Positions 20,299-63,015 of a DNA stretch of 64,000 bases are shown piece by piece. The notes beneath the pieces were generated by a model. It searched no databases, was not told the origin of the DNA, and worked only from the letters and a program-made list of their open reading frames with translations. The stretch is from NCBI RefSeq assembly GCF_000337835.1, contig NZ_AOLM01000007.1:1-64000 (forward strand). The letters are read 5' to 3'. The DNA is from Haloferax sulfurifontis ATCC BAA-897 (GTDB taxonomy: Archaea; Halobacteriota; Halobacteria; Halobacteriales; Haloferacaceae). Made by a program: the position numbers and the translations under genes. Position 1 is the stretch's first letter; each line of letters opens with the position of its first letter.

Positions 20299-20326
20299 CC
20301 GGACCCATGTCCACGCCTGACTCCGG
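20299..20326 (+). promoter_or_regulatory. CCACGCCTGA hairpin overlapping the integrase start
   Basis: CCGGA (20299-20303) pairs with TCCGG (20322-20326); the loop holds the integrase ATG (20307) and the core TCCACGCCTGAC. The same core occurs inside hairpins of different stem sequence near 49966, 52294, 56067 and 62973. Because this copy overlaps codons it is the weakest member. Confidence 0.45.
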
Positions 20327-21509
20327 GGGTTCAGACCCTCGAAACCGACTCGCAGACGCCGCCGACGCCGGCAACGACGTGGCGCTCGCCATCGACCGCT
20401 ACGTCCGCGCCAAGTCGAAGGCCCCTGACGACAGCTCCGGTCGCGGCTACTACGCGACCTCCGCAGGCGGCATCCTCGCCCGCTGGTACGCGTGGCTCGC
20501 CGACAAGCACGTCGACGAGTTCGACATCCTCGGCGGCGACCGCGGCCCCATCATGATGCGCCGCTACGCACAGTACCTCGCGCGCCGTGTCTCTGGCGGC
20601 GGTATCAGCGCCTCAACCGCCGAGACGTACTACAACGTCGTCAGCGCCTGCCTGACGTACGCAGTCCGCGACGGCGAACTCGCCCGCAACCCCGCGCTCA
20701 CCAACCGAGCACGCGAACCACTCCCGGACGCGAACGCCGACCGCGCCGACCAACAGTTCTGGGACGAAGAGTCGGCCGCGGCGCTCCTCGAGTTCGTCGA
20801 CGACCGCGCCCACGACGCTATCGACGAGAAGGGAAGCGACGCCGTCGCCGAAGCTCGCGACCGCGCGCTCGTGTACGTGCTCGCGTACTCCGGGGTTCGA
20901 GGGGCCGAAGTCGTGCGCGCGACCACGGACGGTCGCGAGGGCCGGCAGGGCCTCCGCTGGCGCAACGTCGACACCGACGACTGGCAGACCATGCGCGTCC
21001 TCGGGAAGTCCCAAGAGTGGGAGACGGTGCCCATCCTCCGGCCCGCGAGGCCGGCGCTCAAGCGGTGGTACCGCATCGCGGACCCGCCGAGCGACGAGTG
21101 GCCCGTCTTCCCGACCGGCCATGCGCCGTCGAAGTACGCCGCCGTCCGCGACGAGCTGGTGCCCGACCTCGGGGAGGACGCCGTCGACGACCTGCTCGCC
21201 GAGCGCGACGTCGACGAACTCCTCGTCGAACACGACCTCACACCGCCGGCCATCACGACCGAGGGCGCGCGCCGGCTCATCGAGCGGCTGTGTGAGTCCG
21301 CGGGCGTCGCTATCGACGGGAACGCGCTGAAACCCCACGGGGCGCGGCGCGGGCTCGGCGACACGCTCTTTCGGAACGACCGTGGCGTGGCCCAAGACGT
21401 GCTCCGGCACCGGTCGCTCTCGACCACCCGGCAGGCGTACCAGCACATCGAAGCCGAGGAGACCGCAGAGCGCGCGAGCGACCTGCTCGACGTCGAACCC
21501 GACACATGA
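20307..21509 (+). CDS. Tyrosine recombinase / integrase (XerC/D-like)
   Basis: 400 residues with a complete catalytic set: Arg198 (YSGVRGAE), Lys234 (LGKSQEWETV), His344 and Arg347 (PHGARR), His368 (LRHRS) and the nucleophile Tyr378 (QAYQHI). The N-terminal 150 residues form the SAM-like core-binding domain. Such enzymes integrate or resolve haloarchaeal elements. The ATG at 20307 fits a TATA region near 20255 better than the long upstream reading. ATGA overlap with the next gene. Confidence 0.9.
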   Translation: MSTPDSGGSDPRNRLADAADAGNDVALAIDRYVRAKSKAPDDSSGRGYYATSAGGILARWYAWLADKHVDEFDILGGDRGPIMMRRYAQYLARRVSGGGISASTAETYYNVVSACLTYAVRDGELARNPALTNRAREPLPDANADRADQQFWDEESAAALLEFVDDRAHDAIDEKGSDAVAEARDRALVYVLAYSGVRGAEVVRATTDGREGRQGLRWRNVDTDDWQTMRVLGKSQEWETVPILRPARPALKRWYRIADPPSDEWPVFPTGHAPSKYAAVRDELVPDLGEDAVDDLLAERDVDELLVEHDLTPPAITTEGARRLIERLCESAGVAIDGNALKPHGARRGLGDTLFRNDRGVAQDVLRHRSLSTTRQAYQHIEAEETAERASDLLDVEPDT

Positions 21510-21874
21510 CCGCCGCAGACCCGTGGGTCGGCGTCACCATCCTCATCGCCGCGGGCGCTGTGACTGCCTATCGGCGGTTCGAGGACTGGCGGACGCCCGA
21601 CGAGGGTACGAGAGAGTGGGCCCACCAGCTCTACGCGACGGGGAAAATCGACGAGCGCGAGCTGGAACGCCGACTCGATGTCATCGAAGACCCGGAGGCC
21701 GAGCGCATCCGGCAGGCGGTCGAACGAACGTCTGGCATCGGCGACCAGATTTCATGGGACATCGCCGCCCGCTTCGATACGCTTGACGACGTTCGAAACG
21801 CATCACTCGACGAACTCACGGCGGTCCCCAACGTCGGCGATGCGCGCGCAGAGGCGCTGAAGGACTCACTTTGA
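21506..21874 (+). CDS. Membrane-anchored SHOCT/HhH small protein
   Basis: 122 residues. One hydrophobic N-terminal helix (about 7-23), then a SHOCT-like short helical unit (LYATGKIDERELERRLDVIED) and a C-terminal helix-hairpin-helix (LTAVPNVGDARAEALKDSL) that usually touches DNA backbone. Start overlaps the integrase stop by ATGA, indicating coupled translation. The combination of membrane anchor and HhH is unusual. Confidence 0.65.
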   Translation: MTAADPWVGVTILIAAGAVTAYRRFEDWRTPDEGTREWAHQLYATGKIDERELERRLDVIEDPEAERIRQAVERTSGIGDQISWDIAARFDTLDDVRNASLDELTAVPNVGDARAEALKDSL

Positions 21875-22142
21875 AGTTCCACTTCCGCCGAATCCTTCAC
21901 TTTCACTCTACACGGAAGGCTTCGCTTGATATGCCTCCGGTACATAGGGTTGGTCGCCGCTCGGCGTGCGATGATGGCGGGAACGCGACCCACGACCTGA
22001 CTCGACTCATACATCCCGCCGGGTCGTGAGGCCGGCGAGGACCGGCCACCGACCCCACCGTGCGGCGACTCATCTTTCTGAGCCGATGCGCGCGCACCGT
22101 GCGTTCGCGTCGGTTTATGGCACTCTGCGCCGACTATCGACT
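21875..22142. other. Intergenic, with a GGCCGG hairpin and promoter
   Basis: No gene is supported. It contains GGCCGG-CGAGGA-CCGGCC near 22030 and a TATA-like GGTTTATGG at about 22112-22120, 25-30 nt before the GTG start at 22143. Confidence 0.5.
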
Positions 22143-23660
22143 GTGACTGACGACACCACAGAGCCGACGGCGCTTCGCGCGTGGGTCCGCGCGCAGGCGG
22201 ACGACCTCGGCGTCGACGTCTCGGACCTGCTCATCCAGAGCAAGCGCCGCGACCCGATGTGGAAAGGCACCGACGCCGACCGCGCGAAAGCCGAGTGGTT
22301 CGCCGAGTGGTGGGAGCGGGCGACCGAGTCCATCGGGACCGACCGACTCCACGTCCGCGGCCTCCACTACTACATGGCGAGCGCCGGCGAAGACATCGAA
22401 CCGCCGACGAACTGCTCGTGGGACCTCTACAAGAACACGTCGCGGTGCTACGACTACCTCGAAGAGTGTTCGATGCTCGCGCGCATCCTCGGGACCATCC
22501 CGCTCGGCGGTATCGAGGACCAGAAACACGACCAGATGACCGTCACGACCTACTCCGACCACCGAAGAACAGCGGACACGCAGGAGGTGTCGCCGCCGGC
22601 CGGTATCGACGCACCCGGTGTTCCCAAGCCCGAGGAACGGGCTTCTCTCGGCTTTGACCCCCGGAGTATCGGCGGCGAAACACCGCTCCAGAACGTCGAG
22701 TTCGACGATGCGACCGACTACGCGCTCCTCGTTGCCGAGTCGGTCGTCGACGACATCGAAGACGACCTCTATCTCGACGCGCCGCGGCAAGCGCCCTACC
22801 ATCTTGAGCTGTGGTCCGAAAAGACGCTCCCCGAGTACATTCACGACCTCGCGCGCTCCCTCGGGGTCAACGTCATCGTCGAAGGGCAGGGCGACCTGTC
22901 GCTCACTATCGCCCACGACCTCGTCCGCCGCATCGACGACGCCGGGAAGCCCGCGGTCATCCTCTACCTGTCAGATTTTGATGCAAAAGGGGACCACATG
23001 TCGACCGCAATGAGTGGCAAATTGGCGTGGCTCAACGAGCGCGGCGACGTCGACCACCGCGTCGCCATCGAGCAGTTGGCGCTCACCAAAGAGCAGGTCG
23101 AACAGTTGGACCTCCCGCGGAAGCCCATCGAAGAGTCCTCACACACGGGCACGGGCGGCCGGGCGTACGACACGCTCGTCGACGACTGGGAGCGCCGGAA
23201 GGGCAAGGGCGCGACCGAACTCAACGCCCTCGAAGCCCGACCCGAGGAGTTCGAACGCATCGTCCGCGAGGGTGTCGAACGCTACATCGACCCCGACATC
23301 CCCGCGAAGAACGCCGAGGCCCGCGAGGAGTGGCGCGAGCAGACGGTCGCGACCATCCGCGACGCGATTCGCAACGCCGGCCTCGACGAACAGATCGGCG
23401 CGGTCGTCAGTTGGGCGACCCGGTACAACGAGGCGCTCGACGAGGCCGAACCCGTCCTGCGTGAGCTGAGGGAGTTCCGCAACGACCCCGACCTCGCCGA
23501 CTGGGTGCGCTCGACGCGCGACGCCGTCGACGAAACAGCGTTGCCACTCGTGGAGGTCCCCGAAGGCCACGCGCCGTGGCCCGAAGACCCCCTGTTCGAT
23601 ACCGACCGAGAGTACGTCCAAAACGTCGCTCGCATCCAACAGCACGCGAACGACCGCTGA
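22143..23660 (+). CDS. TOPRIM protein related to topoisomerase VI subunit A / Spo11
   Basis: 505 residues from a GTG placed about 27 nt after a TATA box. A TOPRIM domain is visible near residues 215-295: LELWSEK (metal-binding Glu) and YLSDFDAKGDHM (DxD). The N-terminal region contains RGLHYYMASAG, similar to the Topo VI-A winged-helix segment that bears the active Tyr. Topo VI-A is about 370 residues; the long C-terminus is extra. No subunit B gene is seen in the window, so it may act alone as a nuclease or with a host partner. Confidence 0.65.
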   Translation: MTDDTTEPTALRAWVRAQADDLGVDVSDLLIQSKRRDPMWKGTDADRAKAEWFAEWWERATESIGTDRLHVRGLHYYMASAGEDIEPPTNCSWDLYKNTSRCYDYLEECSMLARILGTIPLGGIEDQKHDQMTVTTYSDHRRTADTQEVSPPAGIDAPGVPKPEERASLGFDPRSIGGETPLQNVEFDDATDYALLVAESVVDDIEDDLYLDAPRQAPYHLELWSEKTLPEYIHDLARSLGVNVIVEGQGDLSLTIAHDLVRRIDDAGKPAVILYLSDFDAKGDHMSTAMSGKLAWLNERGDVDHRVAIEQLALTKEQVEQLDLPRKPIEESSHTGTGGRAYDTLVDDWERRKGKGATELNALEARPEEFERIVREGVERYIDPDIPAKNAEAREEWREQTVATIRDAIRNAGLDEQIGAVVSWATRYNEALDEAEPVLRELREFRNDPDLADWVRSTRDAVDETALPLVEVPEGHAPWPEDPLFDTDREYVQNVARIQQHANDR

Positions 23661-23987
23661 GTCTACTTCTACGTCTGTCCTACGCCGTCACCGCCGTCAC
23701 CGCGCCCGCGTTCGTATCCGTCCCTCCCTGAGAGTGGGTTTGCCCCCGAGAATCCGCCCCGGCCGACGCCACGGCGTCCGATAGTGAGCAATTTCTAAAC
23801 AATAGGTCGATGACTGTAGTGTATATCCCGTGAGACGCGCGTGCTTGGGCGCTTGCGTCGTTGATGGTCGATACGCCTCACAGGCCGCGTCATGTTGAAA
23901 AGCGCGAGAGACGGCACGACGCGCGCGATGGGGTGTTGTCTCTCACGTGAGTTGCGGGATGGAACGGACGCTCGTTGACGGGCGCTG
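23661..23987. other. 327-bp gap between convergent genes
   Basis: No supported gene. Contains a palindrome CTCACGTGAG (about 23943-23952) and several short T-rich and GC-rich runs that may end both converging transcripts. Nothing else recognised. Confidence 0.5.
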
Positions 23988-37896: not shown

Positions 37897-38670
37897 TCAC
37901 AACTCGATATCCAGGTCGTCGAGCGACACGCCCTCGCCGGCTCCGTAGACAAGCGGGTAGACGTAGCGTCGAAGTCCAGCCTCGTAGCTGAACGACCCGA
38001 CGGTGTTGTGCCACCAGTCGGACCGGCCACCGAAGCCGGTCATGACCCACGGCTGAGTGAGCGACCGGAGGTAAATCGCGTCGTCCCATCCGTTGTCCCA
38101 CCACGCCTGCATCTCGTCATCTGACAGGTGTTCGAGGTCGACGTCTTGGCCTTCCTCCGCGGTGAGGTAGTAGTGATGCCACGGGTTGACGACGTGGAGT
38201 GTCGGGTGGACCGCACCCTCGCTGTCGCCGAGGACCGTCGGTGGCGACCGACTCCATCCGCGGAGCCAATGGTACGCGGAAAACGCGACGTCGACGATTT
38301 CGTCGGTGGTCTCGTTGACCCGGACGTAGATGGGTTCGTGGTCCCCCCAATGGCTGTCGTAGCCGAGTGCAACGCCCTTCTGGAACGGGTACTCCGCCCA
38401 GTAGACCAATACGGTGTCGTCGAACTCAGTCGACCGCGCCACAAACGAGTAGAGCGCCGTCGGTGTGTTCGTCCCGAGGTCCCGGAGAACCAGACGCGGC
38501 TTGTAGCGGTTCAGCAGGTCGGGTTCGTATGTCCGTGTGACGTGGTCCGGCGTCGCGTCGTCGATAGTTTCCGACGCCGCCGAGACGCCGGCAGAGAACG
38601 TGCCGCCGACGAGCGCCCCGGCCGCGAGGGCCTTCCCACCCGCCCGAAGGAACTCTCGACGGGTTCGCAT
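37897..38670 (-). CDS. Tat-exported hypothetical protein (257 aa)
   Basis: 257 residues with a clear twin-arginine signal (RREFLRAGGKALAAGALVGG). The mature part is rich in Trp, His and Tyr, with YWAEYPFQKGVALGYDSHWGDHEP and NPWHHYY, loosely like NPP1/Vps62-type extracellular proteins. Its stop lies 226 bp from the next gene. One-base overlap with the protease gene suggests joint expression. Confidence 0.6.
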   Translation of the reverse strand: MRTRREFLRAGGKALAAGALVGGTFSAGVSAASETIDDATPDHVTRTYEPDLLNRYKPRLVLRDLGTNTPTALYSFVARSTEFDDTVLVYWAEYPFQKGVALGYDSHWGDHEPIYVRVNETTDEIVDVAFSAYHWLRGWSRSPPTVLGDSEGAVHPTLHVVNPWHHYYLTAEEGQDVDLEHLSDDEMQAWWDNGWDDAIYLRSLTQPWVMTGFGGRSDWWHNTVGSFSYEAGLRRYVYPLVYGAGEGVSLDDLDIEL

Positions 38671-40286
38671 CAGGCCGCCGCCCCCGTCAGTTCAATCCAG
38701 AGGCGAACGACCGACGACCCTGAGTAGCCCTCGTTCGCGAGGTCGCGCGCCCGTGCCGCGTCGGTCCGCGCGTCTTCTTGGCTCGTGTCGCGCTCGACGA
38801 GTCGCGTCGCGTTGTACGCGTCGACCATCCCGTTTCCGACCTCGGTCGTGCCGGCGTTCGGCATCGGTGCGGCCGAGTCCAAGAGCGCCGCCCGAAGTGC
38901 CTCGTGGTCACCCGCGAGCGACGGGTTCGCTTCGAGCGTGAGCGCCGCCACGCCAGAGACGACGGGCGTCGCCATGCTCGTCCCCGACAGCGTCGAGTTC
39001 GTCGGCAGGCCCGACGAGGAGTACACGCGAGCGGTGAGCTTCATCCCCGGCGCGCCGACGTCCGGCCCCTCGCCGTTCGTGACGCCGTTCGAGAAGTCCG
39101 AGACGCCGCCATCCGGACCGACCTCCGAGAAGTACGCCGCGCCCGCGTTGTCGGGCGTCGTCGTGTTCGTCGCCGCGACGCCGATGACCCCTGCTTCGGG
39201 CACGTCGGCCGGCGACGAGATGTAGCGGAGCGCCGGGTTCTCTTTCGAGTTCCCGACCGCGACCACGACGAGCGACACGTTGCCTTCGAGCGCTTCGGAG
39301 AGTTCGTCGGCGATGGTCGCCGAGTAGACCGCCGACCCGAGCGACATCGAGATGATGTCTGCGCCCTGCTCGTCGGCGTACTCGATGCCCTCGACGATAT
39401 CTTGGGTGTTGCCGCCGCCGCTGTCCGAGAGCGCCTTGATGGGCATGACGTTCGCGCCCGGTGCGACGCCTTCCAGCGGTTCACCGGTCGTCGTGTTGTT
39501 CGGGTTCGCGGCTATCGCGCCCGCCACCCACGACCCGTGACCGTTGCCGTCAGCGACGGCCGCGCGACCCGTCTCGTTCGTGATAGTGTTCTTCGGCGAA
39601 ACGATGCGGTCCTGATAGACTGAGTCGTTGGCCGAGTCTTGGTAGTTGAGACCCGAGTCGATGACCGCGACCGTCACGCCCGTCCCGTTGACCGAGACGT
39701 TCGCTGGGTCAGCTCGAACTGCGCGCCGAGCGTCGGCCATCGTAGACTGGTTGGCGTCCTCGTTGAACGCCTGTCCCGATGCCGAGAACGCGGCCTCGCG
39801 ACCGAGCGTGACAAAGCGCGCCCCCGGTGGGCTCGCGAATGTAGATGCGTTCGAGAGCGTCGTGACCGGCTCCGTGTAATCGACCCGCGACGCGATGTCG
39901 ATGTGCTCGACGTACGACCGCGCCGCGAGGCCGTTCCCGAGGATGCGCGCCGCCCCGACGAGTCCGATGTCTTCGGGCGCGGCGGCGATGAGCGCACGGT
40001 TCGACTCGTTGTCGAGCGCGATGAGCGACCGGTCCTGCGAGTCGGCCCACGTCTCCATCGACCGCTCAGAGCCGTCTTCGAACGTGACGTAGAACGCGGG
40101 TTGGCCGTCGTAACTCGTGACGCCCGAGTCGTCGAACGACCCCAGACCCCAGTACGACGTCGCCTCTGTCGCGGCACCTGAGAAGACGCCGTCGAACGGC
40201 GACCCAGAGGCGGCCATGACCGGCGCGGCCATCGGCGAGAGGACGAGTAACGTTGCGACTACCAGTGTGAGTGATTTGCGTTGCAT
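38670..40286 (-). CDS. Subtilisin-like serine protease
   Basis: 538 residues. Signal peptide 1-26; a propeptide-like region to about 200; then the S8 catalytic triad Asp210 (VAVIDSGL), His250 (GNGHGSWVAG) and Ser437 (SGTSMATP), with oxyanion Asn346 (VGNS). The C-terminal 60 residues end in a hydrophobic stretch and may anchor it. Secreted haloarchaeal halolysins are similar. Within a transfer or envelope cluster it may process surface proteins of the apparatus or of the recipient. Confidence 0.9.
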   Translation of the reverse strand: MQRKSLTLVVATLLVLSPMAAPVMAASGSPFDGVFSGAATEATSYWGLGSFDDSGVTSYDGQPAFYVTFEDGSERSMETWADSQDRSLIALDNESNRALIAAAPEDIGLVGAARILGNGLAARSYVEHIDIASRVDYTEPVTTLSNASTFASPPGARFVTLGREAAFSASGQAFNEDANQSTMADARRAVRADPANVSVNGTGVTVAVIDSGLNYQDSANDSVYQDRIVSPKNTITNETGRAAVADGNGHGSWVAGAIAANPNNTTTGEPLEGVAPGANVMPIKALSDSGGGNTQDIVEGIEYADEQGADIISMSLGSAVYSATIADELSEALEGNVSLVVVAVGNSKENPALRYISSPADVPEAGVIGVAATNTTTPDNAGAAYFSEVGPDGGVSDFSNGVTNGEGPDVGAPGMKLTARVYSSSGLPTNSTLSGTSMATPVVSGVAALTLEANPSLAGDHEALRAALLDSAAPMPNAGTTEVGNGMVDAYNATRLVERDTSQEDARTDAARARDLANEGYSGSSVVRLWIELTGAAA

Positions 40287-45165: not shown

Positions 45166-46473
45166 TCAGTCGATGCGGCGGTACCCACCCCCGTCAAGTT
45201 TCTCGACGAAACCGTACTTCGACGCCGCCTCGTCGAGGAGCTGAATCGCCGGACCAAGTTCCTTGTCGTCGAACGCGTCGACGACCGCGTTCGCCGCTTC
45301 CGCGACGTCCACCACTTCGTCGACCGGGAGCGCGTCGGCCGCGTGGCGCGCCGCTTGCCGCGGGGTCATCCTATCGCCATCGCCGTCGTCGCCATCGCCG
45401 CCGTCGTCGTCGTCGTCGCTGTCACCCCCGTTGGCGTCGTCACGTTCGTTCGCCACCTGTTCGTCGTTGGTGTCGTCACCGTCCCCACCGTTGGTGTTGG
45501 ACGCCTCATCGGCGTCCTCGGTCTGGTCCTCCCCACCGTCAGCGACCGTCTCCTGCGAGTCGAGGCCGGTCTGGTCGGGACTCCGCGTCTTCACTTCGAC
45601 TTCCGTGATGCCCGAGAGAACGGCCGTCATGCCCTCCGCAGTCTCGCGGAACTTGATGTTGCGCAGGCGGACGGTGTCGCCTTCTTCGACGCCGGCCTCG
45701 CCGAGCGGGTCCGTGCCCTCGCACTCGTACGGGACGATGTTCCCGGCGTCGTCTTTGATGTGGCCCTTGCCCTGCATCCACTCCGGCGGCTCCAGTATCT
45801 CGTCCACGCGAACGGTCGCGTTGCCGATGCCTTTCGACGGCGACGCCAGCACGGCGGCCGGTTCGCTGTCTTCGGCGTCGGCCGACTCGTCGGTCGCGGC
45901 GTCTTCTTCGTCGCCGGTCCATGCCGCCTTCGAGAAGTCTTCTAACTGCTCCGCGGCGCTCGCGACGTGGATGCCGCAGGCGTTCCCGATGCCCGCGGTG
46001 TACTGCGAGTGGGTCACCATGTAGCCGTCGCCCTGCTCGACCTGCTCTTTCATCCGGTCGCGGTAGTCCTTCGCCCGGTTCAGGAAGTCCTCGGAACTCA
46101 GGTCGTGGTCTTTGACGTACTTCGAGACCTCGTCGAACGACTGGTTGAGGTTCAAGCGGAGTTCCGCCGACGCCTTGTCCTCGTGAACGAACTTGAAGTG
46201 CGTCTCCTGTTCGAGGTAGCCCGCACGCGCCGCGCGCTGCGCGAGGCCGATGAACTGGTCAAGGTGCGACTCGCGACCGCCCGCACCGCCCATCTCCTCG
46301 GCGGCGTACAGGATAGCCTCGTCAACGTCGGTCCGCGTCGGCATATCCAGGTCCGAGAGTTCGCGACCGTCGTCAAGTTCCGCGAGCATCATCTTCGCGA
46401 AGCCGCGGAAGACGGTCATCCCGAAGTGGATAGTCTGGAGGCCCTGCCGCGGTAGGTCGTCAAGCTCGTTCAT
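45166..46473 (-). CDS. OB-fold partner protein of the primase-helicase (435 aa)
   Basis: 435 residues, start overlapping the primase stop by ATGA. An N-terminal helical region, then a module AELRLNLNQSFDEVSKYV...YMVTHSQYTAGIGNACGIHVA (about 110-190) shared with the HNH protein at 50927. Next an OB-fold-like stretch (VRVDEILEPPEW...GDTVRLRNIKF, about 230-300) typical of ssDNA-binding proteins, a long Asp/Gly linker and a C-terminal wHTH-like end. Probably works with the primase-helicase at the fork. Confidence 0.65.
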   Translation of the reverse strand: MNELDDLPRQGLQTIHFGMTVFRGFAKMMLAELDDGRELSDLDMPTRTDVDEAILYAAEEMGGAGGRESHLDQFIGLAQRAARAGYLEQETHFKFVHEDKASAELRLNLNQSFDEVSKYVKDHDLSSEDFLNRAKDYRDRMKEQVEQGDGYMVTHSQYTAGIGNACGIHVASAAEQLEDFSKAAWTGDEEDAATDESADAEDSEPAAVLASPSKGIGNATVRVDEILEPPEWMQGKGHIKDDAGNIVPYECEGTDPLGEAGVEEGDTVRLRNIKFRETAEGMTAVLSGITEVEVKTRSPDQTGLDSQETVADGGEDQTEDADEASNTNGGDGDDTNDEQVANERDDANGGDSDDDDDGGDGDDGDGDRMTPRQAARHAADALPVDEVVDVAEAANAVVDAFDDKELGPAIQLLDEAASKYGFVEKLDGGGYRRID

Positions 46474-49400
46474 GCCGGCTCGCGCGATTCGCGCCACGTT
46501 TCGCGGAGATCGTCGAACGGCATCGACAGCGCGAACCGGTAGAACGCCAGCGCGTGTTGGGAGAGGTCGAGCCCTTCGAAGTGGTGCGTCTTCGCGTCGG
46601 GGTCTTCGGACTCGTCCCAGTCGAGACCGGCGAGTTCGGCGAACGCGCGGTTCATCTGGTTGCCCGCGCCTTTCACGTCGTCGCGGAAGGCGACCTGAAT
46701 CGACCGGCGCTCCTCGGCGCTTCCCTGAATGGCCTGCTCGCCCGTGATGACGATAGGCGCTCGCAGGTGGTACTCCTCGGTCGACTTGTCGGCGTTCCCG
46801 CGAGTGTCGTACTCCCACTTCGTGTTGAGGCGAAGCAGGTTCTGGAACGCGTCGAGCCGGTAGTCGGCGATGTCGCCCGGCTTGTACTCGTCGAACCAGA
46901 TGGGAACCGCGTTCGAGGACGCCATCGCGGCCATCAGCGTGAACGTCGTCGAGTCGACCTTCTTGCCCGACCCGTCCATGCCGAACATCTGCGTCAGCGT
47001 CTCGACTGTCGACGACTTCCCCGCGCCCGTCCCGCCGCGGATGTGCATGTGGTTGAACTGGCCTTCCTCGTCTTGGATGAACGGCCGGAGCGGCGCGGAG
47101 TAGAACCACCCGAGGACCGGAAGCAGGCGCTCGTGGTGTCGCGTCTTGTGGACCAGTTCGAGCATGTCCACGACCTCGGCGGGGTCGTACTCGGTGTGCT
47201 TGTCGGGCGACAGCGACCACGCGCGCTCGACGTCGATTTTTCGCTCTTGGTAGACGTGCGTCGGGTCGTCCGTCCACCCGTCGTGGCGCAGGACGCCGTT
47301 CGGCGTCACGAACTCGTCGCGGTGCAGGCCCATGTGGTGCGTGCCGTCGCGCTCGGGCGCTTCCTGCAGGCCCACCACCTTGCGCACTTCGTTGAGGTCC
47401 GACTGACTGCCGTCGAACGTCGTCGTCCGACCGAGGACGACCGTGTCGCGGAAGCGCCGCACGTCGTTGAACACGTCCATCGAACACGTCAGCTCGTACG
47501 CCGGCTCCGGCCCGCGCGGCCAGACGGTGAGCTGGACGAGAATTTCGTTACCGCGCTCGGCGCGCAGGAACGACCGCGCTTCGAGTTCGAAGTTCGTGAC
47601 CTCCTCGTAGTACGTGTCGCCGTCCTGCGTCGTCTTCCAGTAGCCGTAGCCGCCGTCCGAGTAGTCTATCGCCGCGCCGGCGACGACCTTCTCGCCCGGT
47701 GGCTTGCTCCCCGGCGTTGCCGGCGGGGTCGTGTTCGTCGTTTCGTGGAGTTCGCCGCCGTCCGCGTCTTCGGCTTCGGTGTCGGCTTCGGTGTCGTCGG
47801 CGGCGTTCGAGTCGTTGGAGGCCGCCGTGTCGGCCGTCTCCGTGGTGTCGGACGCGTCCGAGGCGTCGGGTGCCTCCAGTTCCTCGTCGCCCCACAGGTC
47901 GGTCTCCGGCGGCCGCTCGCCGTCGTCGGTCATGTACTCGCGACCGTGGTCGAACCCCTCGTCTTCGAGTGCGGCGAGCGCACGGTTGTACGTCGTCGCT
48001 CCGGGGAACGCCTTGAACGAGCGCCCGTCGTCGCCCTGCTTGCGGACAAACGCGTCCTCGGGGAGCACGCCGAGCGCGACCGCCGCCTGCCGGACCGCCC
48101 AAAACGGCATCGTCTCGTACGCTTCCTCGCCGTCGCGTTTCTCGGACCCCGCTTCCGGTATCCACACCGGGATGCTGAACCCGAGGCCGCGCAGGTGGTC
48201 GACGCCCGTCGCCCAATCGGAGCCTTTGGCGATGTCGCCTTTCGTCCAGTTCTCCTCGGCGATGAGCGCCATCTCAACGGCCGTTCCGTGCTTGTTCCCG
48301 TCGCCGGTATCGACGAACGTTCCCTTTTCGAGGTCGATGTACGTCGCCGACCCGTTGGAGTTCCGCCCCCAAATCGGGATGAACGCACGCTTGCCGCTAC
48401 TGGAATTGTCGGTTTTTCCCGACGCTTGGTCGGTCCACTGGTGAACGATGGTCCGCTCGGCGACTGACTCCGCGTCGAGCCGGTCGAGTGCGTCGTAGAT
48501 GTCGCGAACGTCCGTCGTCAGCGCGAGTTCCGACGGGTCCGGGCGGTTCTCGCGAGCGCGTTCACGCGCCGCCTGCGCACGCTGTTCTTCCTCGCGCTCG
48601 TCTTCGACCCACGCCTTCAGCGCCGCCTTCCAGTCGTCGTACTCGGCGCTGTAGTCGGGCCACAGTTCCTCAACGAGCGATTTGATGCACGACGTGTACT
48701 CGGTCGCCGTGAGGTCCGCGGACCACGCGGCGGCCGCGTCGATGAGGTCCTCGTCGACGGCATCGAACGTCGTCAGGTCGTACGACGGGTCGTCGGTGTC
48801 GATGGGCGTCACGACCGCGTCGTGTTTCGAGTGGACCGACAGCGGGGCCTTGAACTTCCGGTTGTGGTTGTTCACCCAGTCCGGGTCGATGACCTCTGCC
48901 GCGCCGTCGACGCGCTCTTCGACGCGCTCTTGCGCGCCCGATAGCCAGTCGTTCGAGCGCGTGATGAACGCCTGCATGATGCGCTCGATGGCGTCATCGT
49001 CGCCGTGGAACGCCTCTGCGATGGGGAGCGTCGCCGCCGGCGCTCCCATGATGTAGAGGCCACCGACCGAGTCGAGTGCAAAGACGGCATCGTCGAATCC
49101 GTACAGCGTTTCGAACTCGTCGACGTACGCCGCGATAGTCTCCTCGACGACCGCCTGCGTCTCGCCGTCGAGGTCGCCGCGCTTCGGCTTCAGCTCGTCA
49201 ACGAGGTCGATGTCGCCCCACGCCATGACGCCGCGGAGGTCCTTTTCGATGGGCGTCGGCTTCCGGCCGTCCCAGACGGTTTCGGAGTTCTCGCGGTCGT
49301 AGTAGCACGGGACTTCGCGAAGGCCGGTCGGGTCCTTGTAGCTCGTCAGCGCGTAGAGACAGCGGTCGACCCGGCCGGCGAGCGTGTCGAAATCGTTCGC

Positions 49401-49649
49401 GAACGTCGCCGCGTGGCCGATGCGGTCGAAGCCCTGTTCGAGCGAATCCAGGTCGTCGTTGTCGCGCTTGACGTACCAGCCGCCCGCGTCGTTCGACCCG
49501 AGCGTCGGGTAGCCGTCCTCGCCGGTCGCTTCCGCGAAGCCTTCCGAGGCGTCGATGCTCGCGAGCGCGTCGTACACGCGACGGACGCGCGAGTAGTGTT
49601 CGCGAACGTCCGTCGTCGTGAGCCCGAGGTCGACGTAGTCGTCGCTCAC
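46470..49649 (-). CDS. Primase-helicase fusion (AEP primase plus SF3/AAA+ ATPase)
   Basis: 1059 residues from a GTG at 49649. The N-terminus is an archaeo-eukaryotic primase: AWGDIDLVDEL (GDID at 145-148) and PLSVHSKHDAVV (the sxH motif). An acidic Thr/Asp linker follows near 600-660. The C-terminal motor has Walker A GGTGAGKSS (from 872), Walker B VPIWFDEY (about 915-922), and APIVITGE as sensor. It would prime and unwind DNA for plasmid replication. The motor is paralogous to the HTH-ATPase at 18842-20056. Confidence 0.85.
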   Translation of the reverse strand: MSDDYVDLGLTTTDVREHYSRVRRVYDALASIDASEGFAEATGEDGYPTLGSNDAGGWYVKRDNDDLDSLEQGFDRIGHAATFANDFDTLAGRVDRCLYALTSYKDPTGLREVPCYYDRENSETVWDGRKPTPIEKDLRGVMAWGDIDLVDELKPKRGDLDGETQAVVEETIAAYVDEFETLYGFDDAVFALDSVGGLYIMGAPAATLPIAEAFHGDDDAIERIMQAFITRSNDWLSGAQERVEERVDGAAEVIDPDWVNNHNRKFKAPLSVHSKHDAVVTPIDTDDPSYDLTTFDAVDEDLIDAAAAWSADLTATEYTSCIKSLVEELWPDYSAEYDDWKAALKAWVEDEREEEQRAQAARERARENRPDPSELALTTDVRDIYDALDRLDAESVAERTIVHQWTDQASGKTDNSSSGKRAFIPIWGRNSNGSATYIDLEKGTFVDTGDGNKHGTAVEMALIAEENWTKGDIAKGSDWATGVDHLRGLGFSIPVWIPEAGSEKRDGEEAYETMPFWAVRQAAVALGVLPEDAFVRKQGDDGRSFKAFPGATTYNRALAALEDEGFDHGREYMTDDGERPPETDLWGDEELEAPDASDASDTTETADTAASNDSNAADDTEADTEAEDADGGELHETTNTTPPATPGSKPPGEKVVAGAAIDYSDGGYGYWKTTQDGDTYYEEVTNFELEARSFLRAERGNEILVQLTVWPRGPEPAYELTCSMDVFNDVRRFRDTVVLGRTTTFDGSQSDLNEVRKVVGLQEAPERDGTHHMGLHRDEFVTPNGVLRHDGWTDDPTHVYQERKIDVERAWSLSPDKHTEYDPAEVVDMLELVHKTRHHERLLPVLGWFYSAPLRPFIQDEEGQFNHMHIRGGTGAGKSSTVETLTQMFGMDGSGKKVDSTTFTLMAAMASSNAVPIWFDEYKPGDIADYRLDAFQNLLRLNTKWEYDTRGNADKSTEEYHLRAPIVITGEQAIQGSAEERRSIQVAFRDDVKGAGNQMNRAFAELAGLDWDESEDPDAKTHHFEGLDLSQHALAFYRFALSMPFDDLRETWRESREPA

Positions 49650-49949
49650 GACTCAGTCACCCCGACACCGCACTCGGTATCGTACTCAGCCTGCTGTGCC
49701 TTCCGCGTCGTTTGAGTATCCGTGTGGTTCACGTAGCTTCTGGCGACACCATCCGCCGCTTGCACGCGGTTTCAGGTGCCTGTGGTGGGGCAGGCTCCCC
49801 CCGAATGCACGAAATGTACATTGAGGGACGTTCGAGGTGCATTAATCGACTTCTAAAAGTGAATTCTGCGTCTTTACCCGGTTCATAACCCGGAATTTGG
49901 GCAAAGAGCGAAGTCAACATTTTAGTACCCCGACCACCAACACTCAGTT

Positions 49950-50092
49950 GACGAGCCACATTCAGGCGTGGGCGCGTCTCGTCGCGACGTGCAATCGCGG
50001 CGAACACGAACTGACCCAACAGTTCGTGAAAGCGAGGCTGGTGACCTGCTTGAGTTCTCTCAAGACCCGTTCGAACCGCTTCAAACGGTTCG
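49950..50092 (-). ncRNA. Candidate structured RNA with four tandem hairpins
   Basis: Four inverted repeats follow one another: CGAACCG (50072-50078/50086-50092), CTTGAG with a 4-nt loop (50049-50064), CACGAACTG with a 6-nt loop (50005-50028), and GACGAG (49950-49955/49978-49983) enclosing the core CCACGCCTGA in minus orientation. All stems are perfect. The block lies between the genes at 50142 and 49649 on the minus strand. A 132-codon frame across it is not credible. The rest of 49650-50141 shows nothing else. Confidence 0.5.
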
Positions 50093-50141
50093 GCTGTAAC
50101 ACAGGTCCCGGCTATTCGTTTCCTCATACCTTCAACGCTCC

Positions 50142-51484: not shown

Positions 51485-51512
51485 CTGGCAATCTTTTCCG
51501 ATTCTTTTCCTC

Positions 51513-51796
51513 GTGCCCCCAAATTTTGGTACCAAGGCCGATTTCTTTGGGGGCAAGTAATCGCAAGACGTAGTGGACCCTTTGGACCATTTGGACGATT
51601 TGGTAGCAAAAATCTAGAGGGGTATGTGTGCGGACGCCCGCCTGCACATGCCCGCCCCCGCTCGCACCCGCTCGGGTCTACAGCCCTTGCTCCAGAATTT
51701 TGCTACCAAATCGTCCAAATGGTCCAAGAACCCCCTGCCGTCTGGCGATTTGCGAACCCCCAAATGAAACGGCTTGGTACCAAAATTTGGGGGCAC
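51513..51796. repeat. 284-bp nested inverted repeat
   Basis: The outer arms (51513-51536 / 51773-51796) are perfect 24-bp complements containing GGTACC; the inner arms (51582-51611 / 51698-51727) are perfect 30-bp complements made of three tandem TTTGG units. Between them lie less perfect matches and an 86-bp GC-rich centre. No gene is supported in 51485-51880. Candidates are a replication origin or nicking site, a MITE, or a recombination site. The HNH gene ends 29 bp away. Confidence 0.85.
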
Positions 51797-51880
51797 GGTC
51801 GAAAAGCCGGCAGTATTTGCTAACCGCGTCGCTCTGCGATTACTCATCGAGCGGAGATACTGTCTGAGAAGAAAGCTACG

Positions 51881-52129: not shown

Positions 52130-52268
52130 GGTTTCGATAAAGCGAACCGCTAAGATAAATCCCGGCTAATTTTTGAGGACAGCGAATGACGTTCAGAGTA
52201 CGGTAATGACTGTCTGAAAGTCAGTTTTTGCGGAACACTTATGGTAAACTACAACGCTATTGTAATTT

Positions 52269-52324
52269 GACGCGGCCCGGCTCGGAAGTCCCACGCCTGA
52301 ATGGCTCCCACCGCGGGCCGCGTC
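52269..52324 (+). promoter_or_regulatory. CCACGCCTGA hairpin with an 11-bp stem
   Basis: GACGCGGCCCG (52269-52279) pairs perfectly with 52314-52324; the core CCCACGCCTGAATGG (52290-52304) lies in the apical part with a small CCA/TGG inner pairing. TATA-like ACTTATGG at about 52237 puts the RNA start right at the stem. The gene starts 11 nt later at 52335. Confidence 0.65.
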
Positions 52325-52334
52325 GAGAGAAACT

Positions 52335-52472
52335 ATGAACAATGGTTCGTCACCGTCCGGCGTTGGGTCGTCGGACAAATGGACTGCACAAATCGTCGGC
52401 GGCAAGCCGATGTACTTCCACGCGAACGGCGGCGCGACGCGTGAACGGCCGGACGAGAGGGACAACGAGTGA
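52335..52472 (+). CDS. Small protein (45 aa), first gene of the right-hand operon
   Basis: 45 residues, Ser/Gly-rich start followed by WTAQIVGGKPMYFHANGG and a charged end. GTGA overlap with the next gene. No family recognised. Confidence 0.55.
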   Translation: MNNGSSPSGVGSSDKWTAQIVGGKPMYFHANGGATRERPDERDNE

Positions 52473-55938: not shown

Positions 55939-56053
55939 ACGTCCCCCATCCCGCGAGTACGGCCCGCTCGGGTGTTCGAGCGGCGGACTCGTCGGACCCG
56001 TCGGCACGCAGTCATTTAAATGGGATGACGAACCACAGTTTCAGTAACGACCA

Positions 56054-56087
56054 CCGGACGCGCCCACGCCTGACCGTGTCCGTCCGG
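56054..56087 (+). promoter_or_regulatory. CCACGCCTGA hairpin before the clamp gene
   Basis: CCGGACG (56054-56060) pairs with CGTCCGG (56081-56087), enclosing CCCACGCCTGACCGTG with inner pairing CACG/CGTG. It lies 18 nt before the ATG at 56106, downstream of TATA-like CATTTAAAT (about 56012-56020). A separate CGCTCG hairpin near 55966-55983 may end the HerA transcript. Confidence 0.7.
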
Positions 56088-56105
56088 GGTCGACAAGGCA
56101 CAACT

Positions 56106-56918
56106 ATGCCACAGCAACAACCCCAACAGAAAGCGGAACGAGAATGCAACCAGAACGGAACGACAATCGACCTCGGTGGCTGGACGAAAGCGACAGTCCC
56201 AGTCAGAGACTACGCAGGCAAGGCGAAAGCGCTCGCAGAAGTGCCGTCGACGGGCGTCGTCCTGCACGTCGAACCTGATGCCATCCGTGCTCGGGTGGCG
56301 AACCCCGCGAACACGGTCGTCGTGGAGACGACGTTCGACACCGTCGAGTACGGTGGGCTGACGACAGAACCCGCGTTCGCCGTCGACCCAACGGACTTGC
56401 CACTGACGGCCATGATGTCTGACCAGACCGGGGACGTCACTCTCCGATTCGACGACGGCGAGACAGAGGCTAAGCGCATCGGCGGCAACCTCATGGGCTA
56501 CATCGCGCTCGAAGACCCACAGTTCTCCCAGACGTGGGCCGACGTCCCCGACATCGACGAGTGGGACGGTCGGGCCGAACTCGCGGCGGCAGACTTCAAG
56601 AGCGCGGTCGGTGCGGTCCTCGGCGGATCGGTCGGAAAGGTCCGCCTGACCATCGGCGACGAAGCGCTCATCCCGAAGTCCGAGGACCACGGTGCCGGAT
56701 GGGTCCACGACTGGCCGGTTCAAGCACACACCCGAGGTGAGCGCGTGAGCGGCACCTACGACGAAGACACGCTCGCGGGCGTGGTCTCGTGCATCTCACC
56801 CGACGCACAGGTGACCATCGACATGGTGTCGTCTCACAGTTCGATTCTGCGCATCCAGAGCGACGGCGGCCTGACGTTCTGGGTCGCCGGGCAGTTCAAC
56901 GAGGAGGCAGACGAATGA
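56106..56918 (+). CDS. PCNA-like sliding clamp, diverged
   Basis: 270 residues. After a Gln-rich start of about 25 residues the order of PCNA segments is visible: LHVEPDAIRARVANPANTVVV, TGDVTLRFDDGETEAKRIGGNLMGYIALEDP, VPDIDEWDGRAELAAADFKSAV, and a final strand set VTIDMVSSHSSILRIQ...FWVAGQ. The host PCNA is about 247 residues and better conserved. It could tether the element's own polymerase or nuclease. The interdomain loop shape cannot be judged by eye. Confidence 0.65.
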   Translation: MPQQQPQQKAERECNQNGTTIDLGGWTKATVPVRDYAGKAKALAEVPSTGVVLHVEPDAIRARVANPANTVVVETTFDTVEYGGLTTEPAFAVDPTDLPLTAMMSDQTGDVTLRFDDGETEAKRIGGNLMGYIALEDPQFSQTWADVPDIDEWDGRAELAAADFKSAVGAVLGGSVGKVRLTIGDEALIPKSEDHGAGWVHDWPVQAHTRGERVSGTYDEDTLAGVVSCISPDAQVTIDMVSSHSSILRIQSDGGLTFWVAGQFNEEADE

Positions 56919-58983: not shown

Positions 58984-58985
58984 CG

Positions 58986-59573: not shown

Positions 59574-59710
59574 TGGGTTCGAAGACGAGCACAATCGAGA
59601 AACAGGACGACGTCATGGCGATATACTTCGGTTGCACTCACGTCCACACGGACCCGAATAGCGACGGAGAACACCCGGACGTGTGCCCCGTGTGTGGTGG
59701 TGAGCGATGA
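59573..59710 (+). CDS. Small zinc-binding protein (45 aa)
   Basis: 45 residues with FGCTHVH and CPVCGG, a possible CHxC2 site. ATGA-coupled to the next gene at 59707. Confidence 0.55.
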   Translation: MGSKTSTIEKQDDVMAIYFGCTHVHTDPNSDGEHPDVCPVCGGER

Positions 59711-60228: not shown

Positions 60229-60506
60229 CGCTCTACGAGGAGGGCGACCGACTCGTCGAAGAGTCGTGGGACGAGGAGCAGATGGGCGTCCGAGTTGAGC
60301 GTTGCGTCCGCAAACACCCAAACGGTGACATGAAGCGCATCCGGGTGTTTCGAAAAGAGAACGTCCGCTTCGCGACGCTCGACGGTGACGGCGAGGCGGT
60401 TTCCGAGCGCCACCGTGAGCTGACGAACCTCTCGCCGAAGGCGGCAACTGAGGTCCTGTTTGGGCTGGCGGAGGCGTTCGGGTACCGACTGGAGGAGAAG
60501 CGATGA
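60225..60506 (+). CDS. Hypothetical protein (93 aa)
   Basis: 93 residues, beta-rich basic start (GVRVERCVRKHPNGDMKRIRVF) and a helical end. ATGA coupling on both sides. Confidence 0.55.
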   Translation: MTLYEEGDRLVEESWDEEQMGVRVERCVRKHPNGDMKRIRVFRKENVRFATLDGDGEAVSERHRELTNLSPKAATEVLFGLAEAFGYRLEEKR

Positions 60507-60679
60507 CCCTCTACGAGTGCCCGCGATGCGGCACCCAGACGGCGACGAACGACACGTGCGTGGGGGCGTTCGAACTCCCACCGACGCTCTACTGCGTCCA
60601 CGACGACACCAAGGAAGCCGTCAAGATGGACGTGCTGAGCAAGGCCGACGTCCGCGAGGAAGTGATGGTCGATGCCTGA
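60503..60679 (+). CDS. Small zinc-finger-like protein (58 aa)
   Basis: 58 residues with CPRCG at the start and Cys19 and Cys31 later, compatible with one zinc site. Overlaps the DUF1643 gene by 8 nt. Confidence 0.55.
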   Translation: MTLYECPRCGTQTATNDTCVGAFELPPTLYCVHDDTKEAVKMDVLSKADVREEVMVDA

Positions 60680-61172
60680 GTTCGTCGACGACCGCTCTGA
60701 CGCGGTTCTCTCCGACGACGGGACGTACCGCTACCGGCTCTCGCGGACGTGGGACGCCGACAAGCCGACGGTCGCGTTCGTGATGCTCAACCCATCGACG
60801 GCCGACGCGACCGACGACGACCCGACGATTCGACGCTGTCTCGGCTTCGCGAAGGAGTGGGGCTTCGGGTCGCTCACCGTCGCGAACCTGTTCGCGCTCC
60901 GAAGCACGGACCCGGACGCGCTGGCCGGCCACGCCGACCCGGTCGGGCCGGAGAACGACGCGCACCTGCAGGACGTGTGCGACAGCGCCGAGCGGGTTGT
61001 CGTCGCGTGGGGGGCCAAGGGATCGCTTCGCGACCGCGCCGCGTTGGTCGCCGACCTGCTCGACGACCGCGACCTCTACGCGCTCGACACGACCAAGGCC
61101 GGCCACCCGGCCCACCCGCTCTACCAACCAGCAGATGCCGAGCTGACGAACTGGGACGGTGGTCAACTGTGA
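60672..61172 (+). CDS. DUF1643 family protein
   Basis: 166 residues matching DUF1643 throughout: YRYRLSRTWDADKPTVAFVMLNPSTADATDDDPTIRRC, GFGSLTVANLFALRSTDPDAL, PVGPEND, VVVAWGAKG, and TKAGHPAHPLY. The family is widespread in bacteria, phages and haloarchaea; its biochemical role is not established. The next gene starts by GTGA overlap. Confidence 0.85.
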   Translation: MPEFVDDRSDAVLSDDGTYRYRLSRTWDADKPTVAFVMLNPSTADATDDDPTIRRCLGFAKEWGFGSLTVANLFALRSTDPDALAGHADPVGPENDAHLQDVCDSAERVVVAWGAKGSLRDRAALVADLLDDRDLYALDTTKAGHPAHPLYQPADAELTNWDGGQL

Positions 61173-61489
61173 CCGACGATGAATCCGCATCCGCAATTGA
61201 GCACAAGAGCGGTTCCGAAGTGGTGTCGTTGCGTGAGCGCCGGAAAGCGCGCTACCGACATCTGGCACAGATTAACTCTAGAGTTGATTCGGCGCTGTCT
61301 GCCGCACACGTTGCGACGATTTACCAGCCGCTCGCAGATTCTCCGGGGGCTGTTCGAGTTAGTCCTGCAACATGGTGGGATTACTTCTGGGCTGAAATGG
61401 GGAAATCTCTGCCCGTTGACGTTTATCTCAATGGTGTCGAAGCGCCAACGGGCCAGCAATCACTCACTTCGTTTTCGGAGGTGTGTTAA
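61169..61489 (+). CDS. Hypothetical protein (106 aa)
   Basis: 106 residues from a GTG. Basic central helix (VVSLRERRKARYRHLAQINSRV) and a Trp-rich middle (VSPATWWDYFWAEMG). A lower-GC patch. A longer overlapping frame in +1 lacks these features and is ignored. Confidence 0.5.
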   Translation: MTDDESASAIEHKSGSEVVSLRERRKARYRHLAQINSRVDSALSAAHVATIYQPLADSPGAVRVSPATWWDYFWAEMGKSLPVDVYLNGVEAPTGQQSLTSFSEVC

Positions 61490-61490
61490 A

Positions 61491-61700
61491 TTGGAGGCAC
61501 GACCCAATCGCGCCTGTACGAACTGCGGGAAGTCCGTCGAAGAACTCCCCTACGAGTTCTGGTTGTTCCACACCTGCCGGTCGTGCTCTTCGGAACGCGC
61601 ACCGGACCGGTGGGGCGACGGGCGAAGTGTCGGCGTCGGAACGTACAGGAAGTGGCGGTACTTCCCGCGGTGGCACATGGGGGTGGCGACCGATGTCTGA
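61491..61700 (+). CDS. Small zinc-binding protein with TTG start (69 aa)
   Basis: TTG at 61491 follows a Shine-Dalgarno GGAGGTG (61477-61483). 69 residues with CTNCGKS and CRSCSS forming one zinc site and an Arg/Trp-rich tail. Overlaps the next gene. Confidence 0.55.
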   Translation: MEARPNRACTNCGKSVEELPYEFWLFHTCRSCSSERAPDRWGDGRSVGVGTYRKWRYFPRWHMGVATDV

Positions 61701-61896
61701 GGACAAGACGTGGTTCGTCGGCCCCGCGACATGCCCGTGGTGGAAGTTCAAGGTCGGGCGCACCATCTTCCGACTTCGGATGCGTCACCAGAGACTTCGG
61801 CACGTCCCAGGATTCGACGACTACCTGACCTCGTGGGCGCTCGGCATGGTCCTCGGTTCGCGCGAAATCGAACGTATTGGGGGTGAGGGCGAGTGA
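61693..61896 (+). CDS. Hypothetical protein (67 aa)
   Basis: 67 residues, Trp/Arg-rich (CPWWKFKVGRTIFRLRMRHQRL) with a short hydrophobic helix (YLTSWALGMVLG). Unknown. Confidence 0.5.
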   Translation: MSEDKTWFVGPATCPWWKFKVGRTIFRLRMRHQRLRHVPGFDDYLTSWALGMVLGSREIERIGGEGE

Positions 61897-61985
61897 CGCT
61901 CGCCAATATGTTCACCGCAGGGTTCGTCCTAATCGCGACCGTGGTTATAATCCGGCTCGCAATCGCCGGCGGGGGGTCGCTGTGA
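61893..61985 (+). CDS. Single-helix membrane peptide (30 aa)
   Basis: GTG-started frame coding one hydrophobic helix (MFTAGFVLIATVVIIRLAIAG), linked by GTGA overlaps to genes on both sides, which argues for translation. Confidence 0.45.
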   Translation: MTLANMFTAGFVLIATVVIIRLAIAGGGSL

Positions 61986-62119
61986 CCGCGTGGCGATGCC
62001 CGGAGTGTCGGGCGCGGTCGCCGCGCCAACCGGGCGAGACAACCCGCCCGTTCTGCTCGGCGTGCGACTTCCGGTTCGGCGTTCTCATCGAGATGCAGTC
62101 GCGGGGTGTCGACGCGTGA
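61982..62119 (+). CDS. Small zinc-ribbon protein (45 aa)
   Basis: 45 residues from a GTG, with CPECRA and CSACDF as a compact zinc ribbon. GTGA-coupled. Confidence 0.6.
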   Translation: MTAWRCPECRARSPRQPGETTRPFCSACDFRFGVLIEMQSRGVDA

Positions 62120-62514
62120 CCATCCTCGACTACGCCAAGCCGGTCGCGTGGCGGTTCTACAGCTACGGGACCGACGGCGGTGGCGACCCGCTGTTCTCGT
62201 TTTGGGCGGTCCTCGACGAGGACACGCAGGTCTGCATCTACGACCGTAACGGGGGCCACGGGATGTGGCTCTCGACAGACAACGAGGATGGCGACCACGC
62301 AGGCGAGACACCAAGCGACGAGTTCGAGGAGGTCCTCTACGACGTGCTCGGGACCGGCGGGTCGGTCGCGGCCGAACGCCTCGAACCGCTCCCGGCGTAC
62401 GAACGCTACTTCTTCCGGGTCATCCACGGGACCGTCGAGCAGACGGGGAGCGCGCCGGCGGAACTCGAAGCGTACCTGTCGCACGTCGCGGGCGAGGATG
62501 TGATGGTCGAATGA
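62116..62514 (+). CDS. Hypothetical protein (132 aa)
   Basis: 132 residues from a GTG. Beta-rich aromatic first half (WRFYSYGTDGGGDPLFSFWAVL) and a helical second half. No motif recognised. Confidence 0.55.
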   Translation: MTILDYAKPVAWRFYSYGTDGGGDPLFSFWAVLDEDTQVCIYDRNGGHGMWLSTDNEDGDHAGETPSDEFEEVLYDVLGTGGSVAAERLEPLPAYERYFFRVIHGTVEQTGSAPAELEAYLSHVAGEDVMVE

Positions 62515-62804
62515 CATCGCAAGACAACGACTCGCCGTTCGCGTTCTTCGACGAGGACGGCGGGTGGGTGACGATGACGACCCTCAAAAACGAGATGGGG
62601 CCGTTCGAGACGAGCGCTCGCGAGACGGTTGAGTCGCTGGAGGCGGCTGGTATCGTCAACGTCCGTCGCGGCGACGACGGGCGGCCGGTGACGGTGCAAC
62701 TGAGCGCCTTCGCCGACGACCTCGTGAACGCCGAGTCGGACGCCGAGGCGCTCGAAGTCTACCGGGCGCACGACAAAGAGCCGCCCGACAACCTCCGGGA
62801 GTGA
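62511..62804 (+). CDS. Putative winged-helix protein (97 aa)
   Basis: 97 residues; WVTMTTLKNEMGPFETSARETVESLEAAGIVNVRRGDDGRPVTVQL fits a winged helix. Last gene before the structured leader at 62870-63000. Confidence 0.6.
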   Translation: MTSQDNDSPFAFFDEDGGWVTMTTLKNEMGPFETSARETVESLEAAGIVNVRRGDDGRPVTVQLSAFADDLVNAESDAEALEVYRAHDKEPPDNLRE

Positions 62805-62869
62805 GGCCCGGAGCCCGATTTCGCGGACATTGACATAGGCTCCCACCGTGTCTTCGCTCGGGGCTACGG

Positions 62870-63015
62870 TTTAAGTACGAAGACGTGACCTCGAAGTAGT
62901 AGACGACGCCCGTGCTGGTGCGCTGGAGGGTTCGATTCCTTCCGACGGGCTTCCCGACGACGGACGCGCCCACGCCTGAACGTGATTCGTCCGCCGTCGG
63001 CTTTGGAGAAAGCAG
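62870..63015 (+). promoter_or_regulatory. Structured leader: promoter, tRNA-like minihelix, CCACGCCTGA hairpin
   Basis: TATA-like TTTAAGTA (62870-62877) is followed by a minihelix. GCCCGT/ACGGGC (62908-62913/62945-62950) encloses a perfect tRNA-type T-arm, GAGGG-TTCGATT-CCTTC (62926-62942). Next comes a hairpin with CCGACG/CGTCGG and GGACG/CGTCC stems (62954-63000) around CCCACGCCTGAACGTG. ATG is at 63016. Confidence 0.65.

Follow-up and report, generated by a model that had tools for sequence, protein, structure and literature searches.

What links the operons of a mobile element whose leaders carry one and the same short sequence? The question is raised by the first 64,000 nucleotides of contig NZ_AOLM01000007.1 of Haloferax sulfurifontis ATCC BAA-897 (below, the window; a part of contig 7, of 80,402 bases, of this haloarchaeal genome), in which the sequence CCACGCCTGA occurs five times. 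The region around the copies is mobile, with genes for an HNH protein, a HerA/DUF87 ATPase, a primase-like protein and a PCNA-like clamp and many small genes. An initial annotation had described the five copies as hairpins with a common core and had proposed a protein-binding RNA element or a structured DNA signal tying replication and integration genes together. The analysis presented here points to a different answer, to which we give a probability slightly below one half (about 0.48): the element may encode a trans-acting antisense RNA of about 180 nt that regulates several of its early operons.

Motif copies and their kinship

Exact copies of CCACGCCTGA were found at 20311 (+), 49962 (−), 52291 (+), 56064 (+) and 62970 (+), numbered 1 to 5 in this order; 0.15 were expected, and none of 100 shuffles contained at least five. 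The five occurrences are a real motif, but they are not one family of five. Copies 2, 4 and 5 have in common 17 identical bases, GACGCGCCCACGCCTGA, together with NYGTG, and their stems have GACG/CGTC in common, whereas copy 3 shares with copy 2 only CCCACGCCTGAATG and has a different, longer stem. The view that the stem sequences are unrelated therefore holds for copy 3 and fails for copies 2, 4 and 5.

Copy 1 (20307..20326, +) is best read as a chance match outside the system, since its core forms codons 2–5 of an integrase gene (20307-21509, +, ATG at 20307, Phage_integrase match), the copy spanning the first codons, M-S-T-P-D; the flanks of the other copies are missing, and it folds no better than shuffled sequence (z +0.59); one chance match is unsurprising.

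Copies 2 and 5 agree over 29 nt at 90% and are inverted relative to each other on the map. With a tyrosine recombinase gene present in the contig, such a pair could be taken for sites of a site-specific recombinase, for example one inverting the 13 kb between them. Recombinase sites usually keep their arms and vary the spacer, whereas the present copies have a constant centre and variable arms, and the positions of the copies relative to leaders and promoters would be left unexplained; we regard this explanation as very improbable.

A predicted small RNA at copy 2

The matrix used for promoter prediction (consensus AACGTTTATG) was trained on 745 upstream regions taken from other haloarchaeal loci and places the start 34 nt from its first base; the BRE at −33 to −37 reported for HF2 agrees with this spacing (PMC8707807). 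On the plus strand a promoter, AACATTTTAGTACC, was predicted at 49916..49929 with 13.2 bits, ranking second among the 160,778 positions scored in the contig. Its predicted start, 49950, is base 1 of hairpin 2 (49950..49983). On the minus strand near copy 2 the best candidate promoter reached 6.5 bits and lay 73 nt away.

From this start a structured small RNA of about 180 nt is predicted on the plus strand (49950..50130), divergent from the primase gene, the start codon of which is 301 nt from the start of the RNA. The fold had a minimum free energy (MFE) of −81.1 and a z-score of −5.53, and a second run gave z −6.43 for the plus strand and −1.54 for the opposite strand, the minimum among 150 random stretches being −2.84. 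Neither a good open reading frame (ORF) nor an Rfam family was found in 49950-50130, and a nucleotide search with the small RNA returned no relative, only short chance-level matches.

In this RNA copy 2 (+) would be the 5′ hairpin, with a loop AUUCAGGC (49960-49967) antisense to the cores in the leaders, and the plus-strand transcript would carry UCAGGCGUGGG, the antisense of the core. The UUCAGGC of the loop is predicted to be unpaired at 0.98–1.0, except for the first U at 0.35. Copy 2 had been annotated as a minus-strand instance of the hairpin; the 13.2-bit promoter and the fold asymmetry point to the plus strand, and the strand given earlier is the antisense of the likely transcript. On that strand the RNA of copy 2 would be complementary to the other copies and not alike.

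The orientation of copy 2 also bears on the idea that the leader hairpins are protein sites, where a regulator of the element or a host RNA-binding protein would read the loop CCACGCCUGA in mRNA and copy 2, upstream of the primase gene, would be a further site of this kind in a minus-strand RNA. The conserved loop and changing stems of copies 3–5 are typical of protein-bound RNA hairpins, and these leaders stand directly before start codons. Against this, copy 2 lacks a good minus-strand promoter, has a very strong predicted plus-strand promoter at its first base, which runs against the core, and gives a fold signal only on the plus strand, in the RNA of which the loop would not be visible to such a protein. 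We consider protein sites unlikely; the structured leader element of the initial annotation is kept, with protein binding as a rival and not as its best explanation.

Leaders of three operons

Copies 3, 4 and 5 lie in plus-strand mRNA leaders, each with a predicted promoter, just before the start codons at 52335, 56106 and 63016, as had been noted before. The first gene behind leader 3 is an ORF of 45 residues (52335..52472, +); behind leader 4 is the PCNA-like sliding clamp gene (56106..56918, +), which alone has no Pfam match but, as a family profile, hits sliding clamps of archaea (the best being 1rwz, E 6.5e-11); and behind leader 5 is an ORF of 149 residues to which no function was assigned (63016..63465, +, no Pfam or PHROG match).

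For leader 3 the promoter was predicted at 52234..52247 (+, 8.6 bits, predicted start 52268, 2 nt inside the hairpin), and the hairpin (52268..52326, +) has a long outer stem with the core CCCACGCCTGAATG in a large loop. For leader 4 the promoter is at 56011..56024 (+, 7.4 bits, predicted start 56045, 5 nt before the hairpin) and the hairpin at 56050..56088 (+), with the loop CCUGAC unpaired at about 1.0. For leader 5 the promoter is at 62866..62879 (+, 7.8 bits, predicted start 62900) and the hairpin at 62954..63000 (+), with the loop CCUGAA unpaired at 0.8–1.0. Since 72% of haloarchaeal messages are leaderless (PMC5867862), leaders of this kind are themselves unusual.

The z-scores of folding were −3.05 for copy 3, −1.06 for copy 4, −3.98 for copy 5 and about 0 to −1.1 for the minus strand of copy 2; complementarity of the arms had p values of 0.001 (copy 3), 0.016 (copy 4), 0.10 (copy 5), 0.16 (copy 2) and 0.21 (copy 1). 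Individual significance is thus reached by copies 3 and 4 in the arm test and by copies 3 and 5 in folding, not by every copy, and the description of the stems as always complementary was too strong. A structured element with a conserved loop and changing stems, at the head of several operons of the same mobile element and among them that of the clamp gene, is supported. An Rfam search of the window and the searched regions at a lax threshold gave no match above the gathering score. Not supported are copy 1, best read as chance, and copy 2 as one more minus-strand instance.

Regardless of how the core is oriented, copies 2, 3 and 4 each begin no more than about 5 nt from a predicted start, as would be expected if the repeats were double-stranded DNA operators just downstream of the start, at which a repressor of early promoters binds irrespective of orientation. 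A dimer would bind the arms, and these are not shared by copy 3 and the other copies, whereas RNA folding is conserved; copy 5 lies 54 nt downstream, and the strand-specific fold of 49950-50130 would have no explanation. Operators seem to us a little less probable still than protein sites.

Complementarity between the predicted small RNA and the leaders

All three leaders carry GCCUGA(A), the complement of the UUCAGGC loop of the small RNA, and complementarity to several mRNAs is above chance: with three other predicted leaders of the contig the RNA has at least 14 exact complementary bases each, against a background of 6 in 38,515 leader pairs from 78 control loci. In the leader of copy 3 the exact complement is 14 nt long. 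The loops are accessible in the predicted folds, UUCAGGC being mostly unpaired and CCUGA(A/C) unpaired in leaders 4 and 5 and partly so in leader 3, and the net pairing energies after opening costs are −12.8 to −18.8 kcal/mol. The small RNA locus is 2.3–13 kb from its putative targets and is not encoded opposite them.

Further GCCTGA sequences near predicted starts, two of them behind very strong minus-strand promoters, were also considered; their number is about that expected by chance. One in the 45065 leader was rejected as an extra target, the motif there lying in a stem.

Parallel design in clamp-bearing relatives

Three loci found through the clamp (L143, L144 and L145; clamps 23–24% identical) have a recurring leader motif of their own, GCACAACCCCCT, in about eight leaders per element. 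Stretches of 43 kb and 50 kb each contain 10 copies of its core CACAACCCCC, with 0.07 expected, and most copies of GCACAACCCCCT are in leaders or just before start codons; the clamp gene and a second clamp-like gene are among the genes with such a copy. In three elements a promoter of 12.5–14.1 bits precedes an RNA containing AAGGGGGTT(T)GTGC, the antisense of the motif. At L143:1147 (+) the promoter scores 13.5 bits and the RNA contains the antisense AGGGGGTTGTGC; two further elements have retained this gene for the RNA, at 90% and 81% identity and with promoters of 14.1 and 12.5 bits. The architecture recurs in these relatives with another sequence. The parallel came to light in a scan of a dozen related loci, and its weight should be reduced somewhat on account of that search.

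One more copy of GCACAACCCCCT, which counts among the limits of the parallel, stands beside a conserved terminator-like hairpin on the other strand, GCCCC...GGGGCTTTT, at L143 ~1470-1500, L326 ~1465-1492 and L327 ~8530-8556 (minus), which suggests that a minus-strand RNA ends there.

The recurrence in relatives weighs on a further explanation, by which the copies are a small dispersed repeat or a duplicated promoter-leader cassette with no regulatory role. Copies 2, 4 and 5 do look like descendants of one sequence, and haloviruses carry intergenic repeats that are promoter cassettes: those of HF2 precede operons and are promoters themselves (PMC8707807). In the window, by comparison, the repeat is downstream in the transcribed leader and without BRE/TATA, the promoters lie upstream of the repeats and not within the sequence common to the copies, and one copy would be antisense in its transcript. 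The similarity stops short of the promoters, the core of copy 3 is in an unrelated stem, and in the relatives a different sequence has led to the same arrangement, all of which makes a mere repeat improbable in our view.

Within the conserved RNA gene, comparison of L143 1225-1300 with L326 and L327 showed a stem-loop CTCCAGCCCTAAACTGGAG in L143 where the other two have it in inverted form, as CTCCAGTTTAGGGCTGGAG; the loop is flipped and the stem kept.

Searches for the motif and the RNA elsewhere

Matches to the exact motif in 14 other genomes of the genus and in 391 other genomes of the order were in coding sequence or at chance level, and the own genome gave no credible relative of it. Matches in viral contigs, searched with 14 and with 17 fixed bases, had no matching flanking hairpin or leader context on inspection and were taken as chance, and no relatives were found in viral contigs by the clamp, gene 63016 or the primase. 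A covariance model, suggested in the initial annotation and built here from copies 2, 4 and 5, brought up no further member of any credibility, either in the own genome or among related loci. Further examples with the core outside the window were thus found in none of these, that is, own genome, genus, order, viral contigs and related loci, which is the first of the outcomes that the initial annotation counted against its reading.

In the nearest relative of the primase, at locus L293, CACGCCTGA lies about 365 nt upstream of the primase gene, and a divergent promoter of 11.7 bits is 295 nt from it (301 in the window). An equivalent RNA in L293 finds support neither in the fold, which is unremarkable (z +0.34), nor in targets, none of which turned up; the locus was not used as support. 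Likewise not used was a hairpin with CGCCTGAGC upstream of the primase gene of virus CGphi46, in which other leaders carry a different repeat.

Proposed mechanism

For the antisense RNA the following course can be proposed. The small RNA would be transcribed on the plus strand from 49950, its 5′ hairpin presenting the loop UUCAGGC, and the mRNAs of the three operons (45-residue gene, PCNA-like clamp and gene 63016) would expose the complementary loop GCCUGA(A) in their leader hairpins. First contact would be made loop to loop (kissing), and pairing could extend to 14–22 or more base pairs near the start codons. The effect would most likely be lower translation or message stability, by which expression of early and replication genes may be coupled to the dose of the element. 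Computation has shown the motif, the complementarity, the coincidence of promoter and hairpin, the strand-specific fold and the parallel design in the relatives. From them we infer that the RNA is produced, that it pairs in the cell and that its effect is negative.

Several results weigh against a trans-acting antisense RNA. The complementarity is automatic once one copy has been inverted, because the copies resemble each other. Neither the exact motif nor the small RNA was found in any other genome searched, and the pair in the window is without comparative support of its own. In unconstrained cofolding the long stem of copy 3 leaves a small net gain (−4.4), loop-proximal pairing has two mismatches with copy 4 and one with copy 5, and hairpin 5 sits 54 nt downstream of its predicted start, behind a tRNA-like minihelix. 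As to the relatives, the antisense in the two further elements is AAGGGGGTTTGTGC, with a 1-nt insertion, the L143-type RNA shows no more than mild structure (z −2.94), one predicted fold has part of the antisense stretch base-paired in a stem, and the motif is located after the leader hairpin and not in the loop of it. The independent evidence for the antisense RNA is the position and orientation of the promoter, the strand-specific fold and the parallel design in the relatives.

A wider generalization is doubtful on present evidence, namely that a class of haloarchaeal mobile elements runs an RNA regulon in which the leaders of early operons are tagged with a motif of the element's own and one strongly transcribed RNA bears the antisense of the tag, both diverging together between elements and the tags setting which elements can interfere with one another. 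Should the pair of tag and antisense indeed differ between elements, it would give copy control or incompatibility of archaeal plasmids and viruses a basis in RNA, and further small RNAs could be sought with the aid of the tags.

Comparison with known systems

Kissing loops are known from plasmid copy control in bacteria, where CopA/CopT of R1 and RNAI/RNAII of ColE1 are cis-encoded, fully complementary and directed at a single target. The RNA proposed here would resemble CopA and RNAI in its complementary accessible loops (small RNA, copies 4 and 5, partly copy 3) and in the proposed control of replication genes; unlike them, it would be trans-encoded, not opposite its target, with several targets and complementarity of only about 14–29 nt. 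The antisense RNA of phiH is reportedly counter-transcribed from its target, as distinct from the proposed RNA, encoded elsewhere and matching three separate leaders. Use of an antisense RNA on the own transcripts of a halovirus or plasmid-like element would be the feature shared with Halobacterium virus phiH (Stolt & Zillig 1993, cited in PMC6210493).

In Methanosarcina mazei the archaeal trans-acting sRNA154, which serves chromosomal nitrogen regulation, matches several mRNAs with its loops (PMC5867862). Such multi-target loops would be a shared feature, whereas sRNA154 is not on a mobile element and has no recurring leader hairpin tag. For HFTV1 abundant antisense transcription, cis antisense to viral genes, has been reported (PMC12542753), and a multi-target RNA matching leader hairpins was not met in the parts of that report consulted. 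A limited search of open papers turned up no archaeal case in which a single RNA of a mobile element is matched to recurring leader hairpins, and an RNA switch of this form looks like one not yet described there. Regulation by small RNAs is poorly understood in archaea because targets are rarely known; with one predicted RNA and three targets nameable to the base, on a self-contained element that includes a replication clamp, the mechanism would be directly testable.

Other features of the element and related loci

The primase/helicase-like gene (46470..49649, −) has a weak PHROG DNA primase match, and its relative in L293 is 52–56% identical. At window 45490-46518 (minus) the reading of the primase-like gene goes on in another frame, and the L293 relative (1468 aa) aligns to frame 1 until ~46,480 and then to a different frame; a sequencing error, a broken gene or a frameshift are the alternatives.

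The minihelix of leader 5 (62908..62951, +), read from the sequence as a T arm with acceptor, was not called as a tRNA and has no other copy in the genome. Such tRNA-like stretches (GGTTCGATTCC plus an acceptor-like arm) lie directly before the recurring leader motif at window 62908-62951, L143 ~4050 and L144 ~1050, that is, before gene 63016 in the window and before the second clamp-like gene in the relatives. Other groups of predicted leaders in the contig have at least 12 exact bases in common, some of them complementary, namely those near 371, 1468, 2811, 2908 and 3382 and those near 6183, 18000, 18451 and 51949.

In L134 a C5 DNA methyltransferase-like frame (6919-7869 and 15136-16827; contig 66919-76827) is apparently interrupted after VENVPEF by an intein-like insert, which is in turn divided by several genes, one of them for a DDE transposase; methyltransferase and intein are labels given from sequence alone. 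A subtilisin-like protease is encoded at window 38670-40286 (minus), inside the left block (Pfam E 2.5e-46). At window 51512-51797 AT-rich nested long inverted repeats were found, with arms of 59 nt (75%) and 38 nt (95%) built of TTGGTACCAA and CATTTGGACGATTTGG, which possibly represent a replication origin or control region; upstream of the L293 primase gene, at 5239-5510, there are TTTGACGGGTTTGACG repeats.

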